Shown: positions 52,860 through 62,788, counted from the stretch's first letter. The stretch is DNA of 64,000 nucleotides from Geitlerinema sp. PCC 7407 (GCF_000317045.1 NC_019703.1:3088501-3152500); one strand, 5' to 3'. The notes: generated by a model not told the origin, from the sequence alone. Translations and numbers: made by a program.

Positions 52860-53253
52860 TGGTTCTGTCCAACCGTGTGAGGCATCTAAAATTTTGGCGT
52901 ATGATCCAGGATCGCATAACTCGCTCCTTTCGGCTTAGGGGAGGATGACGAGTCTGGGAAAGGGATTTAAGGAAAAATTCGGCAGCCTCAGGGCCTGAAT
53001 TTGGGGGGGATGATAGGCCCTCGCAAAAGAGGCAGGAGCGGGCAACCCAGGAGTGGGCGACGAAAAATTACAGTGGCGTGAAAAATGGCGGCGATCGCCC
53101 TTCGCTCCCACTAAATTACAAAAGACAACCGTAGAAATATCTATTTTCTGCCACAAGCTGCCCTTATCTAAACGGATCAAGGGTTAGCGGGTGCGTAGAG
53201 TGAGCTTAAAAACGCTGGTAGTCATCGCTGATCAGCGGTGGGGAGAAGGGTTT
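52860..53253. other. Divergent intergenic region
   Basis: About 390 bases between the aminotransferase gene and the secretion pore gene. It must hold both promoters. The stretch 53090-53170 is AT-rich. No supported gene. Confidence 0.5.
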
Positions 53254-55080
53254 ATGAATTGGGGATATGGAGCGAGATCTTGGTGGCGAGCGGCGCTGTT
53301 GACTGGGTGTTGGGGGCTGGGGGTCAGCTCGGAGGCGATCGCCCAGGGCACCGCGGACCCTCCGGAGCGAGAGCCGGGCATGGCGCAAGACGCGATCGCC
53401 CAGGTGCCGGACCCTAACCGCGATCGCCTACTGCCGTCACCGGGCCTGCCAGAGACCCTCCCGACAGACCCCGAGACTATCCTGCCGGAAGACGAGCCCC
53501 TGCTAGAGGAGGAGCCGCTCCTCGAGGAGGACACGCTGGCACCCGAGACTCCCGCAGAGGAGACCCCCGCAGAAGAGGCGAGCCCCCTGATTGCTGTCGA
53601 GCAGGTGCAGGTGGTTGGCAGCACGGTCTTTGAAGAAGCCGATTTCGAGGCGATCGTCGGTCCGCTAGAAGGCCGCCAAGTCACCCTTGAGGCGCTGCGC
53701 CAAGCCGCCGACAAAATCACCGAACTCTATCTTGGCGAGGGCTATATTACTTCGCGGGCCATTGTTGGCGACCAGACGGTGAGCAATGGCATCGTCCAGA
53801 TTCAGGTGATTGAGGGCAGCGTCGAGGACATTATTGTCGAGGGCAACCAGCGGGTGAGGGCGGACTACGTCCGCGATCGCATTCGCCTGGGCACCGGCCA
53901 GCCCCTGAACAAAAATCGCCTCGAAGACCAGCTGCGCCTCCTCAAGCTCAACCCGCTCTTTGCAAATGTGGAGGCCAGCCTGCGATCGGGCAAGCAAATA
54001 GGGCGCAGCCTGCTGTCGGTGCGGGTGGTCGAAGCAAATCCATTTCAGGCAACTTTTAGCGTTGACAACTACTCGCCTCCCAGCGTTGGCTCGGAGCGCA
54101 TGGGCATCGCGCTGCGCCATCGCAATCTCACAGGCAACGGCGATGAGCTAGCGGCAGCCTACAATCGCACCACGGCAGGCGGCGCCAATGTCTTTGACTT
54201 CAGCTACCAGATTCCGCTGAATGCCCGCGAGGGAACCCTGGCTCTGCGGGCAGCTCCCAACAACAATGAGATTATTGACCCGGCCTTTGCAGGTTTTGGG
54301 ATTCGGGGGGAGACGGAGCTCTATGAGGTGAGCTTTCGGCAGCCCCTGGTGCGATCGCCCCGCGAAGAGCTAGCCCTGTCCCTGGGCTTCACGCTGCAAA
54401 ACGGCCAGACGTTTTTGTTTGACAATCAGCCCACGCCCTTTGGCATCGGTCCCGACGCCGATGGCTTTAGCCGCACGCGCGTGCTCAAGCTTGGTCAAGA
54501 CTACGTGCGCCGGGACGTGGGCGGCGCTTGGGCCTTGCGATCGCAGTTCAACCTGGGCCTGGATATCTTGGACGCCACGATCAACGACGACCCCACGCCC
54601 GACGGGCGCTTTGTGAGCTGGCTGGGCCAGGCCCAGCGGGTCCAGATCCTCAATGACAGCAACCTGCTGATCGTGCAGGCTGACCTTCAGCTGACGCCTG
54701 ATACCCTGCTGCCGTCTCAGCAGTTTGTGATCGGGGGCGGCCAGTCCCTGCGCGGCTTTCGGCAAAATGCCCGCTCCGGGGACAACGGCTTTCGCTTTTC
54801 GGTGGAGGACCGGATCGCCATCGTTCGCAATGAAACCGGCAGCCCCACTGTGCAGCTGGCTCCCTTTGTGGATGTGGGCAAGGTTTGGAACACTTCGAAT
54901 AATCCCAATCGGCTGGCGGACCAGACCTTTTTGGCGGCGGCGGGCCTGGGACTACAGTGGGAGGCGCTGCCCGGTCTGACGATTCGCCTAGACTACGCGG
55001 TGCCGTTTATCGAGCTGAGCGATCGCACCCAAAACGCCCAGGACGAGAGCTTCTACTTTAGTGTCCGCTACACGCCCTAG
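53254..55080 (+). CDS. Two-partner secretion outer-membrane pore (TpsB/ShlB/FhaC family)
   Basis: A 608-residue outer-membrane protein, starting at 53254 behind a GGGGAGAAGG site. A signal peptide ends 'SEAIAQ'. An acidic Pro/Glu-rich linker ('EEPLLEEDTLAPETPAEE') follows, then POTRA modules: 'VEQVQVVGSTVFEEADF' with 'ITELYLGEGYITSRAI', and 'IVEGNQRVRADYVRDRI'. The C-terminal 340 residues form the 16-strand barrel, with the conserved 'GGGQSLRGFRQ' motif and a final Tyr/Phe strand (FYFSVRYTP). It would export proteins with a filamentous-haemagglutinin N-terminal domain, such as the neighbour, which is convergent with it. Confidence 0.92.
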   Translation: MNWGYGARSWWRAALLTGCWGLGVSSEAIAQGTADPPEREPGMAQDAIAQVPDPNRDRLLPSPGLPETLPTDPETILPEDEPLLEEEPLLEEDTLAPETPAEETPAEEASPLIAVEQVQVVGSTVFEEADFEAIVGPLEGRQVTLEALRQAADKITELYLGEGYITSRAIVGDQTVSNGIVQIQVIEGSVEDIIVEGNQRVRADYVRDRIRLGTGQPLNKNRLEDQLRLLKLNPLFANVEASLRSGKQIGRSLLSVRVVEANPFQATFSVDNYSPPSVGSERMGIALRHRNLTGNGDELAAAYNRTTAGGANVFDFSYQIPLNAREGTLALRAAPNNNEIIDPAFAGFGIRGETELYEVSFRQPLVRSPREELALSLGFTLQNGQTFLFDNQPTPFGIGPDADGFSRTRVLKLGQDYVRRDVGGAWALRSQFNLGLDILDATINDDPTPDGRFVSWLGQAQRVQILNDSNLLIVQADLQLTPDTLLPSQQFVIGGGQSLRGFRQNARSGDNGFRFSVEDRIAIVRNETGSPTVQLAPFVDVGKVWNTSNNPNRLADQTFLAAAGLGLQWEALPGLTIRLDYAVPFIELSDRTQNAQDESFYFSVRYTP

Positions 55081-55108
55081 GTCGCTCTGGGTAACGCCGT
55101 TGTCGCTT

Positions 55109-58100
55109 TTACCAGGGGTTCCCGATCAGGGTGAAACCGGCCCAGTAGTAAGGGTGAGACAGCACGCGATCGCTCACCAAGTCGGCACTCTCTGGCGGCA
55201 GCTCGACCGCTGGCAAGAACTCCAACCCTTGCAGCTTGCCGTCTTCAAGGGTGATTTGCCCCTGGGCCATGGCCAGCTGAGCCCTGCGCAGGGCTTCTGC
55301 TTTGATGGGGGCTGTCCGCAGATGGCCGTAGAACTCTGTCATCAGGCCCGCTGTTGCCGCATCGTTGACAAACCACAGACTGGCGATCGCGCTTTTGACC
55401 CCGGCCTTCACCGCAAAGCCCGCAAAGCCGAGCTCTGCTTCTTCGTTCCCCAGAGCCGTTCGGCAGGCGCTGAGCACCAGCAGCTCTACCGGCGGATTCG
55501 CCAGCCCCAGGGTGCGCAGCTGGTCTAGCTTGAGGCGGCTGTTCCAAAACTGCACGTAGGAGTTGGCCAGCGGCCCAGGCTCAAAGTCCGCATGGGTTGC
55601 CAGGTGAATGATGCCGTAGGGCCGCTCGGTGCGCAGGGCCTTGAGGCGATCGATGGTGAAGGACTCATTGAGCAGCGCCCGTCCTTGCCAGAGCTGCTCG
55701 ATAGCCGCCAGTTCCGCCGGCACCGCTGGCAGAGGCGGCTGCTCTTGGGTGCTCTCGGACACGCCCATGCCGAGGACCTGGGTATCGCGAATGTCACGAT
55801 AGCGGGTATCGGTCAGGGAGAGGCTGGGCATCATCCCAACGCTGAATTCTTCCACCAAGAACTGCTGACCGTTGTGGAGCGCCGCCATGGGGGTCGATCG
55901 CAAGCCGGGCTCCATGAGGAACACCAGATTGTTGATTCGGCGCTGCTCGAGCCTCAGGAGCACCGGCTCAATGATCCATTCATGGAGCTGCTGGGCCGGC
56001 AGCAGGTAGTCATCGGAGCTGGTGGAATCGGGGCTGGCAACGGCGGCCCGCAGATCGGCGGCGATCGCCATCACCCGCGATCGCGTCGCCTCTGGGATCC
56101 GCTGGAAGATCGGCTCTCCCTCCGCCGTCACCACCAACACCTCCAGCTGATCGCTGTCCTGGGGCTCAAACTCCGAAGTCGCCTCCGAAGACAAAGCCTG
56201 GGCGATCGCGCCAAACTGCCACTCCATTTGGCCTGCGCGGTTGGCGCTGCCGCCCCCACTGCCAAAGGCTTTTTCTGGATCTAGGGCCGTTGCTTGGCCG
56301 GGGGCGCCAGTTCTGGCCAGCACTTGGCCCTCGGGCAAAAAGCTGAGATAGACCAACGCAGGCCGCGCGCCCGTATTGTCCTCGATGTCGCGCAAGATTT
56401 CCCGTGCCTCGTCCAGCGTCACCGGGGGCGTCTCGATCGGGATGCCCAGATGGTCGGCAAACTCATTGGTCAGACGGCTTTCACGAGAGGCGATCGCCGT
56501 ATCAACCTCCGCAACCGGAACCCTTGTCGCCACATTAATGGGCGATCGCACCGGTTCCTGAGGCGGTCTAGGTCTACGGACCTCAGGCTCGGGAGACGGG
56601 GTTGGAGTTGGCTCAGGAGACGGAGTTGGGGTTGGTTCAGGGGTTGGCTCAGGAGATGGAGTTGGGGTTGGTTCAGGGGTTGGCTCAGGAGATGGGGTTG
56701 GCGGTGGTGGTGGTGGTGGTGGTGGTGGCGGTGGCGGTGGTGGCGGTGGCGGTGGCGGTGGCGGTGTTATCACCACATTCACTGAAATCTGGATAGGCGC
56801 CGATAGGGAAACGCGATCGGTAGCCCGCAGCGTAAAGAGCGGCAGCGTCCCCGTGACCCCCGGCGGCGCTTGGTATTCCACCACATCCGTTGGACTCAGC
56901 CGCGTTATCCCCGGCGAAATCGAGCTGCCATTGACCCGCACGATTACCCCCGGAGCCACCGAGTCAATAATGTAGGACTCACCCGCCACCGTCGGCAGAT
57001 CTTCAGGATTTGCGTCTCCCGGCGACAAGCCTAGAGCCGATGCGGAGAACGTAAAAACGCTGCCAGCCTCCGCATCTCCCACCGTAGGATTCGCCGCCGA
57101 AAGCGTTGGAGCCGTATTGCGATAGGTAATGCGCACCCCATCCACATTGGGGTCCCCCAGATCCGAATCCGTGTTGTTCGGAATCGGGGTTCCCGGAGCC
57201 GGAAACGTCTGCCCTGTGATCAGCACCCCAGTTCCTGGTGCAGTCGATCGGCTGTCGATCGAGCCCGCCGTACCATTACTCGTCGCATTCCCGACAATAA
57301 AGCGCGAATCGTCCACGCCCGTATTCGGCCCACCGTTGTGGCTGATTTTGACAAAGCCTCCTTGGTCACGGGCCGCCGTCAAAATCGTCTCTCCGGTAAT
57401 CAGAGTCCCCGTTCCGCGCACCACTCCCTCAGCGGTGATGCTGACTGGCCCGCCGCTGGCAACCGAATCCAAATCGTTTATGCGGCCCTGGGTGTTGATA
57501 CTTTCAAACAAGACATCTCCAGGGTTTCCAGGGAGCACCGATAGGGTCACAGATCCCCCCGATACCTGGGGTACCACGCTAGAGGCAACCGCAGTTGTGT
57601 CGATCGCCCCCGTCTCAATCGGGCCTCGGGAGACGATATTGACGGGTCCAGCAACATAGGGGGCAGAGACAAACCCAAAGCTGTTCACTCCCGTATTCAA
57701 AGCGCCAGTCTTGACCCCAGCCCCCTGAATCACAACCTCCCCGCCTCGCACCACAGAACTCGCCGAAGGATTGGTCGCCGTAGCCGTAATGTTGCCAACC
57801 TGCACGGTCTCCGATGCATTGATGTCAACGCGGCCCGCTTCACCCAGGCCAGGCAAGCCCACATAGCTACTGCTGGTGTTGATATTGCCTGCAACGATTC
57901 GCCCCCCACGGGCTTCGAGGATCACAGGACCGCCATACACTTCTGCTGTAAATTCAGAGCCCGGATCAGAGTCAATATTGCTAGAGGTATCAATATCCCC
58001 CACCTGGATATTGCCAGCAGAGAGAGTTCCGGGTGTCGAAAAAATCGTTCCTCCCAAAGGTGGCGAATTGGGGGGCAGGGTAAATACGCCGGGACCTGGA

Positions 58101-59557
58101 GCTGCCGTCAGGGTTGGCTGGCCAGCTCGCAAGATCAGGGCAGGACGAGTGGTGAGGAGGGTAATATCTGGGCTGGGTGGTTGACCCGTCAAGCCGATAT
58201 CTGGCCCCGTGATGCGAATGTTGCCTGCGGTGATGCTGCCACCAGACTCGATCTTCAGCGCCACGCCGTTGTAGTCACCTAAAAAGACATCGTTGGCTGA
58301 GCTGATGATGGGGTCGTAGTAGCTGAAGAAGTCACCCGGGCGCCCGTCCAGCTTCCTGAGTTCAAAGACGCCGCCGCTCGTGAAGTGGGCATCGCCTGAG
58401 ATGGGGCCGTCGCTGATCAGGCGCATGTCTTCGCCGCTGACGAAGGGCGTGATGTCCAGGTGGTTGAGAGCAAGGATGTCAACGGCTTGGCGGCCCTGGA
58501 GGGTGAGATCGCGGCCCGCCTGCGCCCGAAAAGGAACCGTGGCGCTGTCTCGGATGTAGATGCGGTTATCGGCTTGGAGGGTCAGGTCTTGGGCAGCGCT
58601 GAAGGTGCCTTCGAGCAGGTTAATGCTTTCGGTGGCCTGGACCCGGACGTTTTGGCCGCTGGCTTGGCGCAGGGTGACGTCTCCCGGCTGCAGGGCCAGG
58701 CTGGAGCCCTGGAGGCGGACGCTGCCGTCAGGGTCTACGGTGACGCTGGTGGCGTGGGGAGCAGGGCCGCCGGTGAGCAGCTCGGGCAGGCTGGCGATCG
58801 GCAAATTCCAGGTGCCGCCGAGGGGGACTGGATTGACCGCGGCGTCGTGGGGACTAATTTCTAGGCTGAGGACATCCCCGGGCTGAGTGAGACGAACGGT
58901 GCTCTGGCCCGGGACAGCGGCGATCGCCAGCTGGCCATTGGGCGTCAAGAGCGCTCCGGTGCTGATCACGCTGCCGCCCAGCAGGGTCAGGTTTTGGCCC
59001 GGTGCCAGCGTGCCCTCGTTGACCAAGCTGCCGGGCTGGTCCACCTGGAAGACAAAGCTTTCGGGATTGCCGACCAGGTTGGCGTAGTCTTGGCTGCCGA
59101 TGGCGCTCCACCAGCCCTCGGCGAACTTCAGGTGGGTAGCCGTGGCAGCGGTAAAGGAGCCGGGAATATCCAGGCGAGCGCTCGGCCCAAAGACAATGCC
59201 CGCTGGATTGAGCAAGTAGAGATGGGCGCTGCTGCCGACGACTTGCAGCAGGCCATTGATCTCCGACGGCGTGCCGCTGGTGATGCGCGACAGGATGTTT
59301 TGGGTTTCTGGGCTGGTCAGGAACCGGGCCGTTTCGGCGTCAGTGAGCCCAAATTGACTAAAGCTATGGAAGAGGTTTTGGCCGTCGCGCGATCGCGCCC
59401 CGCCCGTGATGTCATAGCGGCCTTGATTGAGCTGAACCTGGGTGTTTGTGCCGTCGGGGTTGGCCTGGATGGATTGAGCTTGGGCTTTGCCGGCCTCCGT
59501 ATTGATCAAAGGCGCGACGATCAGCAGAGCAGGCAGGAGTTTTGGGAGGAGGTTCAT
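55109..59557 (-). CDS. Two-partner secretion exoprotein with C-terminal CHAT protease domain
   Basis: A 1482-residue exported protein. The signal peptide ends 'GKAQAQS'. The TPS domain (about 25-270) has 'LLNPAGIVFGPSARLDIPG'. A long beta-helix follows to about 850, then a cadherin-like stretch. A 22-proline run and PTPSPEP repeats (about 925-990) precede the final domain. The last 320 residues are a CHAT domain, the caspase-like cysteine protease of cyanobacteria. The catalytic His is in 'IIHLATHADF' and Cys in 'VLSACRTALG', with 'SLWFVNDAAT' and the ending 'HPYYWAGFTLIGNPW'. The dyad is complete. It lies tail to tail with its probable pore, 28 bases apart. The ATG at 59557 is preferred to a TTG ten codons earlier. 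Confidence 0.92.
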   Translation of the reverse strand: MNLLPKLLPALLIVAPLINTEAGKAQAQSIQANPDGTNTQVQLNQGRYDITGGARSRDGQNLFHSFSQFGLTDAETARFLTSPETQNILSRITSGTPSEINGLLQVVGSSAHLYLLNPAGIVFGPSARLDIPGSFTAATATHLKFAEGWWSAIGSQDYANLVGNPESFVFQVDQPGSLVNEGTLAPGQNLTLLGGSVISTGALLTPNGQLAIAAVPGQSTVRLTQPGDVLSLEISPHDAAVNPVPLGGTWNLPIASLPELLTGGPAPHATSVTVDPDGSVRLQGSSLALQPGDVTLRQASGQNVRVQATESINLLEGTFSAAQDLTLQADNRIYIRDSATVPFRAQAGRDLTLQGRQAVDILALNHLDITPFVSGEDMRLISDGPISGDAHFTSGGVFELRKLDGRPGDFFSYYDPIISSANDVFLGDYNGVALKIESGGSITAGNIRITGPDIGLTGQPPSPDITLLTTRPALILRAGQPTLTAAPGPGVFTLPPNSPPLGGTIFSTPGTLSAGNIQVGDIDTSSNIDSDPGSEFTAEVYGGPVILEARGGRIVAGNINTSSSYVGLPGLGEAGRVDINASETVQVGNITATATNPSASSVVRGGEVVIQGAGVKTGALNTGVNSFGFVSAPYVAGPVNIVSRGPIETGAIDTTAVASSVVPQVSGGSVTLSVLPGNPGDVLFESINTQGRINDLDSVASGGPVSITAEGVVRGTGTLITGETILTAARDQGGFVKISHNGGPNTGVDDSRFIVGNATSNGTAGSIDSRSTAPGTGVLITGQTFPAPGTPIPNNTDSDLGDPNVDGVRITYRNTAPTLSAANPTVGDAEAGSVFTFSASALGLSPGDANPEDLPTVAGESYIIDSVAPGVIVRVNGSSISPGITRLSPTDVVEYQAPPGVTGTLPLFTLRATDRVSLSAPIQISVNVVITPPPPPPPPPPPPPPPPPPPPPPTPSPEPTPEPTPTPSPEPTPEPTPTPSPEPTPTPSPEPEVRRPRPPQEPVRSPINVATRVPVAEVDTAIASRESRLTNEFADHLGIPIETPPVTLDEAREILRDIEDNTGARPALVYLSFLPEGQVLARTGAPGQATALDPEKAFGSGGGSANRAGQMEWQFGAIAQALSSEATSEFEPQDSDQLEVLVVTAEGEPIFQRIPEATRSRVMAIAADLRAAVASPDSTSSDDYLLPAQQLHEWIIEPVLLRLEQRRINNLVFLMEPGLRSTPMAALHNGQQFLVEEFSVGMMPSLSLTDTRYRDIRDTQVLGMGVSESTQEQPPLPAVPAELAAIEQLWQGRALLNESFTIDRLKALRTERPYGIIHLATHADFEPGPLANSYVQFWNSRLKLDQLRTLGLANPPVELLVLSACRTALGNEEAELGFAGFAVKAGVKSAIASLWFVNDAATAGLMTEFYGHLRTAPIKAEALRRAQLAMAQGQITLEDGKLQGLEFLPAVELPPESADLVSDRVLSHPYYWAGFTLIGNPW
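56593..56765. repeat. Coding low-complexity repeat (proline tract and PTPSPEP units)
   Basis: On the + strand this reads as tandem near-identical copies of a 33-base unit (TTCAGG...GTTGG) and then 22 consecutive NGG triplets at 56699-56764. On the coding strand it gives PTPSPEPTPEP units followed, upstream, by 22 prolines. Such DNA is liable to slippage. Confidence 0.85.
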
Positions 59558-60116
59558 GGCAGTGACAAAACGCGGGCGATCGCCCAAAAGGTTGTAGGCA
59601 GCGGCACCACTTCCATCGAGAAAGTCTGGAAAGTATTCAGGTCAAGGATTCAGAACCAGGCGCGATCGCCCTTCAATCTGGACCCATATTTCGCAAACTT
59701 GGGAGTCTCTTGGTTGGCGGATCGACGTTGAAACCAGACCTCACCATCGAAGCACTTTGTTTGCCCTCAAAATCTCGCCCAGCCAGCGCGGAATCTGCCT
59801 CTAGTCTGCGGCACTTTTAGGCCACTTTCCGCCAAGATTTAGGAATACTTCACGGCGGGGTCAGGGCCCTTGGCAAAGCCGGTCCGGGCGGGTCTCTTTT
59901 CAGAGCCCCCAAGGGGTCAAACAGGCCGATCGCGGAACCTTTCGGAAAGGTTGGCAGGTTTCTAGAGGGTGCGTTATCGTCAACTGACGCAGTCTCTTGG
60001 CGTTTTTTGAGGTTATTGGCCCGAGTTCGCCGGGCAGGCGCAGCCAGTTAAAACGTCCTTGAGCGCGATCGCCCCTCACACTGTTCCGTCAACCTTTGTG
60101 CCTGAATGTTTTGCCC
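59558..60116. other. Divergent intergenic region
   Basis: About 560 bases between the CHAT exoprotein gene and the aldo/keto reductase gene. It has HIP1 sites and no plausible gene or strong hairpin. Both promoters should be here. Confidence 0.5.
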
Positions 60117-61675: not shown

Positions 61676-62788
61676 CTAAGTCCGAGTGAGATAGCAGTGG
61701 CAGTCTGGCTTGGCAATGAATGTTTCTGCTAGAGCGTTTAGGGCCACTGCGGCCAGTAGTCCCCCGCCGAGGCTCCCCTGAACCGTGATGGAAGGAACTG
61801 AGGTGGTCATCAGCTGTCGCTTCGCGGCTGGAGCATGGCTAAAGCCGATGGGCATGCCAATGACGAGAGCGGGCTGGATTGTCCCTTGCTCAATCAACTT
61901 ACAGGCGGTGAGCAACACAGACGGAGCATAGCCAACCACCAGCACGCAGCCCTGGGGAATCTGGTGGAGCCGCTGCTGCCAGCGGTCGTGGTTCCAAAAG
62001 GCTTGCTCGGCTTCGCTGACCCCCGTGACGTGAGGATCGTCAATCAGGGTTGCGATCGCGCATTTGAGATGGGCTAATCGAGTCTGATCGAGGGCCGCCG
62101 CGACCACCGGAACATCGGTCACAACCGAGCACCCGGCCTTCAGCGCCTCTCGGGCAGCGGCGATCGCCCCTGAGCTCAGCCGCACAGCGCTCACCAAGCT
62201 GACATCGCCACACGCCAGCACCAGCTGGTGCAGCAGATGGACCGTGATTTCAGAATAGCCAGACAAATCCGGCAGCAGGTGTTGCAGGGACTCCTGAAAT
62301 GCTTCTGGATGGTTGGTCGTCTCGGCGTCCAGATTGAGCCACAGCTGGTCGAGCTTTCCCAAGCCCTCCTGGGCGTCGACATCTAGCTGCTTGAGCTGTG
62401 CCAGCGCTTCGGCTTGGGTGATTTGGCAGTCTTGGTCGCGCCCCAGCAATCCCTCCAAGGCCGATGCCGTCTGGCGGAGGCGAGTAATCTGCTGAATCAC
62501 CGAGCGATACTGCTGCTGTAGCTGCGCCATCAGGGTGGGATCGCCATCGTCGTCTGAATGGCTGTCGAGCAGGTGCCGAATGTGGGACAGCTGAAACCCC
62601 TGCTGCTTCAGGGCGATGATCCGCTGGAGCCGCTGCACGTCCTGCTGAGTATAGAGGCGGTAGTTGCCTTCGGAGCGCTGGACCGGAGGCAGCAGTCCGA
62701 GGGTGTGATAGTGGCGCACCATGCGGGGCGTAACGCCACCGCCAACCGCATCGGTTAGTTCTTTGATCGTTAGGGGGTCGGTCTTCAT
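61676..62788 (-). CDS. coaR: Cobalt sensor CoaR (MerR-CbiC fusion regulator)
   Basis: A 370-residue MerR-family activator. Residues of about 5-75 are the winged-helix part ('TPRMVRHYHTLGLLPPVQ', 'GNYRLYTQQDVQRLQRI'). A coiled-coil helix follows. Residues of about 165-345 resemble precorrin-8 methylmutase (CbiC/CobH: 'SSGAIAAAREALKAG', 'GMPIGFSHAPAAKRQL'), in which the usual catalytic 'VHACG' reads 'VLACG'. The end 'KPDCHCYLTRT' has the Cys-His-Cys used for cobalt binding in the known CoaR. It is divergent from coaT across an 81-base promoter region with a perfect operator and heads a unit with kptA. Confidence 0.95.
   Translation of the reverse strand: MKTDPLTIKELTDAVGGGVTPRMVRHYHTLGLLPPVQRSEGNYRLYTQQDVQRLQRIIALKQQGFQLSHIRHLLDSHSDDDGDPTLMAQLQQQYRSVIQQITRLRQTASALEGLLGRDQDCQITQAEALAQLKQLDVDAQEGLGKLDQLWLNLDAETTNHPEAFQESLQHLLPDLSGYSEITVHLLHQLVLACGDVSLVSAVRLSSGAIAAAREALKAGCSVVTDVPVVAAALDQTRLAHLKCAIATLIDDPHVTGVSEAEQAFWNHDRWQQRLHQIPQGCVLVVGYAPSVLLTACKLIEQGTIQPALVIGMPIGFSHAPAAKRQLMTTSVPSITVQGSLGGGLLAAVALNALAETFIAKPDCHCYLTRT

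Follow-up and report, generated by a model that had tools for sequence, protein, structure and literature searches.

A predicted two-partner secretion pair with a C-terminal CHAT protease domain as cargo in Geitlerinema sp. PCC 7407

CHAT/separase-like proteases are known mainly from intracellular immunity, development and the cell cycle. A locus of Geitlerinema sp. PCC 7407, in which a CHAT domain forms the C-terminus of a two-partner secretion (TPS) exoprotein, raises the question of whether such a protease is displayed outside the cell. We examined a stretch of 64,000 nucleotides (the window) in which one frame is open from 53191 to 55080 on the + strand (ATG at 53254) and another from 55109 to 59587 on the - strand (ATG at 59557). 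A first-pass annotation of this DNA had described the two as a TpsB gene and a TpsA gene that converge with a 28-base gap, and the coordinates of both genes agree with this description. The features of the pair are as follows.

53254..55080, + strand: TpsB outer-membrane pore, 608 aa, ATG start, frame open from 53191; assigned by Pfam matches
53593..54033, + strand: two POTRA domains of TpsB (PF08479, frame aa 135-209; PF07244, frame aa 211-281)
55081..55108, no strand: intergenic gap of the convergent genes, stop to stop, 28 bp, with no terminator-like hairpin
55109..59557, - strand: TPS-CHAT exoprotein (TpsA), 1482 aa from ATG, 1492 aa from TTG 59587
55112..56545, - strand: CHAT module with conserved N-terminal part, aa 1015-1492 (PF12770, E 3.4e-69)
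55463..55465, - strand: predicted catalytic Cys1375 (LSAC), the sole cysteine of the mature protein; Cys kept in 118/118 copies
55592..55594, - strand: predicted catalytic His1332 (HLATH), by direct reading; His kept in 118/118 copies
56546..56764, - strand: proline-rich linker PPPP...PEPTPTPSPEP, about aa 942-1014, by direct reading
57098..58858, - strand: beta-helix stalk (end approximate) followed by a beta-rich domain, from the AlphaFold model
58859..59470, - strand: TPS secretion domain with NPAG-type motif (PF05860, E 3.7e-40), with structure matches
59477..59557, - strand: predicted Sec signal peptide MNLLPKLLPALLIVAPLINTEAGKAQA, cut between MNLLPKLLPALLIVAPLINTEAGKAQA and Q, by direct reading with the cleavage site placed by eye

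An operon is a usual, though not strict, trait of TPS genes, and it is absent here. The gap sequence contained no terminator-like hairpin, shared or intrinsic (fold z-score -0.64), and promoter-like matches occurred at about chance level. The orientation of the genes is what suggests that tpsA and tpsB are separately promoted, as had been proposed; the promoter-like matches and the gap bring no further support.

From its N-terminus, the exoprotein consists of the signal peptide, the TPS domain, a beta-helix, a beta-rich domain, the proline-rich linker and the CHAT module (478 aa). The TPS and CHAT domains were both matched by Pfam, and the NCBIfam family adhes_NPXG also matched the exoprotein. 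The AlphaFold model of the stalk (mean pLDDT 81) is almost all strand, and its best PDB match was HxuA (4rt6), with further matches to the secretion domains of EtpA, HMW1, FHA and HpmA. Since the global TM-scores, at no more than 0.3 on the query, were modest, we describe the stalk as a beta-helix of the TPS kind and assign it no specific relative. The beta-rich domain that follows resembles weak Cadherin_5 matches in relatives, and the position of the linker is occupied in relatives by TPTP, SPSP, PEPD or DTDP repeats. TpsB matched POTRA_2 (E 4.5e-22), POTRA, ShlB (E 4.9e-28) and Omp85. An N-terminal TPS domain, a TpsB with POTRA domains and a barrel, and a stalk that is beta-helical in the predicted model are the marks of a type Vb system. 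The parts ascribed to the passenger in the first-pass annotation, namely a TPS domain, a beta-helix, a proline linker and a CHAT domain with a His/Cys dyad, were all confirmed by Pfam, AlphaFold or direct reading.

The model of the CHAT module (pLDDT 88.7) was compared with the PDB by Foldseek. The best match was Csx29/TPR-CHAT (E 1.3e-12), followed by separase, SAVED-CHAT and gingipain RgpB (E 5.8e-5). The PF12770 match, the CHAT fold and the His/Cys dyad, which is intact in all 118 distinct TPS-CHAT ORFs read in this study, mark the module as a putative CHAT peptidase. The mature window exoprotein (1459 aa) has one cysteine, and it is the catalytic one. Across the 118 copies, the number of cysteines was 1 in 42, 3 in 63, 5 in 7, 2 in 4 and 6 in 2, and was therefore odd (1, 3 or 5) in 112 (p = 2e-26, indicative only, the rows being related). 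A C-x(3-6)-C pair was present in the linker before CHAT in 46/118 copies. The density of non-catalytic cysteines was 0.97 per 1000 aa; for four neighbouring genes, the figure was ~11 per 1000. This pattern, a free catalytic cysteine together with pairs capable of forming disulfides, is what would be expected of an exported cysteine protease.

The first-pass annotation had suggested a search for the same architecture beside TpsB genes in other genomes, and this search was productive. In a survey of 291 cyanobacterial genomes, a CHAT match at E ≤ 1e-30 was found in 94, and the strong class (E ≤ 1e-70) in 66, with a clear gap before the next match (2e-59). When genome contigs were scanned, relatives of the CHAT module proved to be encoded at no fewer than 573 loci. 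The 80 of these that were kept were all cyanobacterial, and most of the best loci were TPS-CHAT fusions. Related loci number in the hundreds in filamentous cyanobacteria. The retrieved loci yielded 118 distinct TPS-CHAT ORFs for reading; where a kept locus had no TPS domain in its ORF, the ORF was in most cases truncated, either at the end of a contig or at the limit of the retrieved stretch. In the records examined, public annotation already labels both halves of the protein, and the family is annotated piecemeal. TPS systems are known, and so are CHAT proteases. Our literature search, for which most subscription journals were outside the scope, found no paper that joins the two, and their fusion appears to be undescribed in the literature searched.

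About 28 of the 116 complete TPS-CHAT ORFs carry a GT2 glycosyltransferase domain at the N-terminus (PF00535, E about 1e-30, DxDD motif), for example at L042:4227-9482 (+), L084:4383-9050 (+) and L061:4374-9239 (-); the window exoprotein has no GT2 domain. In these ORFs, GT2 is separated from the downstream TPS and CHAT by an internal stretch that resembles a signal peptide and in most cases has AxA at its end. Most have no Met right before the internal stretch, so they look like true fusions of a cytosolic enzyme with an exported protein.

We next compared the distribution of TpsB with that of CHAT. In the same 291 genomes, the TpsB clade (match at E ≤ 1e-130) was found in 59, all of which have the strong CHAT class. 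It was present in 59/66 genomes with strong CHAT and in 0/225 without (Fisher p 2.6e-54, uncorrected for phylogeny), leaving 7/66 strong-CHAT genomes that lack the clade. In a tree of 57 TpsBs, made by a quick method and with low support at many inner branches and some long rows, the TpsBs adjacent to TPS-CHAT genes were intermixed, in every orientation, with orphan TpsBs. The group of the window TpsB holds nearly all TpsBs that adjoin TPS-CHAT genes, whether divergent, convergent or co-directional. Two other TpsBs of the Geitlerinema genome (L038 and L039), together with one from Mojavia, form a separate, long and well-supported branch. Many cyanobacterial TpsBs belong to the Hmw1B subgroup (PMC4104836).

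The tail-to-tail order, which the first-pass annotation had taken as the key oddity of the locus, turned out to be one layout among several. TpsB was divergent from the TPS-CHAT gene in 23 of the 118 cases, convergent in 4, co-directional in 3 and distantly convergent in 1; in the other 87, no TpsB lay within the stretch read, some stretches being short. Convergent gaps measured 28 bp in the window, 28 bp in G303/L164, 37 bp in L139 and 88 bp in L056. The G303/L164 gap, identical in length, is unrelated in sequence to that of the window, and nearby synteny between the window and G303 is limited to the TpsB/TPS-CHAT pair itself; one further L164 ORF matches a window gene 13 kb off. On the TpsB tree, the convergent label needs at least 2 changes, so that convergence was gained or lost more than once. 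The tail-to-tail order is thus real, its 28-bp gap recurring in another genome, but minor, and the 23 divergent, 3 co-directional and 87 TpsB-free cases rule it out as a conserved design.

The structure models, the cysteine economy and the co-occurrence with a distinct TpsB clade indicate a TPS system with a CHAT cargo that is built for export. With a probability of roughly 0.62, we consider that the type Vb exoprotein brings a caspase-like protease to the cell surface or into the sheath, where it would act on itself or on surface proteins. In this mechanism, the signal peptide would take the exoprotein into the periplasm, where the POTRA domains of TpsB, its convergent neighbour, would recognise the TPS domain. 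The protein would then be threaded N-to-C through the TpsB pore, the beta-helix stalk would fold outside the cell, and the proline-rich linker would hold out the C-terminal CHAT, a predicted caspase-like protease with a His/Cys dyad, on the cell surface or within the sheath. Its most likely task there would be to trim or release the stalk that carries it or surface proteins nearby, in adhesion or in filament or sheath remodelling. Export by TpsB is the best supported of these steps. Self-processing may occur, and the choice of substrate is a guess; as a point against this reading, nothing encoded nearby stands out as a substrate. Conservation of the dyad in 118/118 copies, the cysteine economy and the TpsB co-occurrence all argue for an exported enzyme, and the earlier proposal of a caspase-like protease outside the cell is strengthened in that the protein appears built for export, while we infer its actual export and final location. 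In proteomics of a Nostoc water extract, the peptide SLSLLGGTVV was assigned to a 'CHAT domain-containing protein' of Nostoc sp. NIES-2111 (PMC9895726). This peptide occurs in the TPS domain of two relatives (L044 and L099), and, as a single short peptide, it is no more than a hint that proteins of this kind are produced. A point against the surface reading is that the characterised CHAT proteases, HetF and Craspase, act intracellularly.

The CHAT domain might instead reach the periplasm only, with the linker stalled in the pore and the stalk outside, as a regulated protease that releases the stalk or reacts to contact. The prodomain of FhaB stays periplasmic, and the proline-rich region/prodomain of FhaB and half of CdiA arrest in export. 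In the exoprotein, a proline-rich linker likewise immediately precedes the C-terminal domain, and CHAT-TPR proteins of the same genome have signal-peptide-like N-termini, so that extracytoplasmic CHATs look common here. However, an FhaB-like prodomain was not seen in the exoprotein, the linker sequence is variable (TPTP, SPSP, DTDP) and unconserved, and the very low cysteine content is compatible with periplasm and surface alike. We regard this periplasmic location as unlikely, though it deserves some weight. It is improbable that the adjacent TpsB is merely non-specific, one porter serving several dispersed passengers so that adjacency means little. TpsB was absent from the stretch read at 87/118 TPS-CHAT genes, many genomes combine one orphan clade TpsB with several TPS-CHAT genes, and in G303 several TPS-CHAT copies stand against a single TpsB match, all of which would suit a shared porter. 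In the Geitlerinema genome, however, there is only one TPS-CHAT gene, and two further TpsBs, of another group, lie in regions with TPS exoproteins of their own, so in the window the two genes seem to be paired exclusively with each other.

In contact-dependent inhibition (CDI), too, a TPS stalk bears an enzyme at its C-terminus, and a CHAT domain delivered into neighbour cells like a CdiA tip would fit the contact-dependent system considered earlier. We hold this to be very improbable, since there is no immunity gene (the next downstream gene is the convergent TpsB) and the C-terminus is not polymorphic but conserved at about 47-60% identity across the phylum; the downstream immunity gene and polymorphic tip of a CdiA-like toxin are both missing. 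Hardly credible is an intracellular CHAT effector of immunity or cell death with an incidental TPS-like repeat region. Its nearest CHAT fold is indeed Csx29/TPR-CHAT, but the signal peptide, the bona fide TPS domain, the near absence of cysteine and the TpsB co-occurrence speak against it. The suggested link to Craspase-type immunity is not supported either: no TPR Pfam match was found in the exoprotein, which has a beta-helix and a proline-rich linker instead, unlike the Craspase TPR-CHAT proteins, and no RNA-guided partner was noticed.

Surface display thus remains our preferred reading. If export is true, a large cyanobacterial family puts CHAT/separase-like proteases outside the cell, which would matter for the adhesion of filaments, the turnover of the sheath and multicellularity. 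More tentatively, and with the odds against it, there may be phylum-wide surface proteolysis in filamentous cyanobacteria, in which a single dedicated TpsB would carry separase-like TPS-CHATs, be they one or many, to the outside of multicellular filaments; in some lineages a cytosolic GT2 would be cut off at the internal signal peptide, so that one gene yields a modifying enzyme and its exported substrate.

The window pair shares with FHA/FhaC, HMW1A/HMW1B, HxuA/HxuB and EtpA/EtpB a signal peptide, an N-terminal TPS domain, a beta-helix stalk and a TpsB with two POTRA domains and a ShlB/Omp85 barrel, but its cargo ends in a CHAT protease and its genes are convergent and outside an operon. LepA is a trypsin-like serine protease, whereas the window cargo is a predicted cysteine protease of caspase fold. 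In LepA/LepB of Pseudomonas aeruginosa, protease export occurs by two-partner secretion, as proposed for the window pair, and LepA is listed as type Vb (PMC6555100). Csx29/TPR-CHAT of Craspase, which works inside cells (PMC9729208), and the cyanobacterial CHAT protease HetF, which cleaves PatU3 (PMC12288457), share the CHAT fold and the His/Cys dyad with the window exoprotein; unlike them, the latter lacks a TPR region and is predicted to be extracytoplasmic. Gingipain RgpB, matched by the window CHAT as described above, is an exported caspase-fold cysteine protease, but of a different family. Its export route is type IX and not type Vb.

Several further observations were made. In the Geitlerinema genome, an unfused TPS exoprotein, a TpsB and a CHAT protein whose N-terminus resembles a signal peptide are encoded co-directionally and nearly overlapping at L039:4411-13660, and the same three kinds of gene are spread across 15 kb at L038:2586-17340. 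Lone GT2 proteins on Aulosira and Calothrix plasmids (L234:7001-7759 and L235:7001-7759) are annotated as 'filamentous hemagglutinin outer membrane protein', a label probably transferred from GT2-TPS fusions; the Aulosira protein has as neighbours an ABC transporter for secretion and a polymorphic membrane protein of very large size. Within the window, a MerR-type regulator is fused to a CbiC (precorrin-8X methylmutase) domain at 61676-62788, and is adjoined by an ORF from 62870 resembling a metal P-type ATPase.
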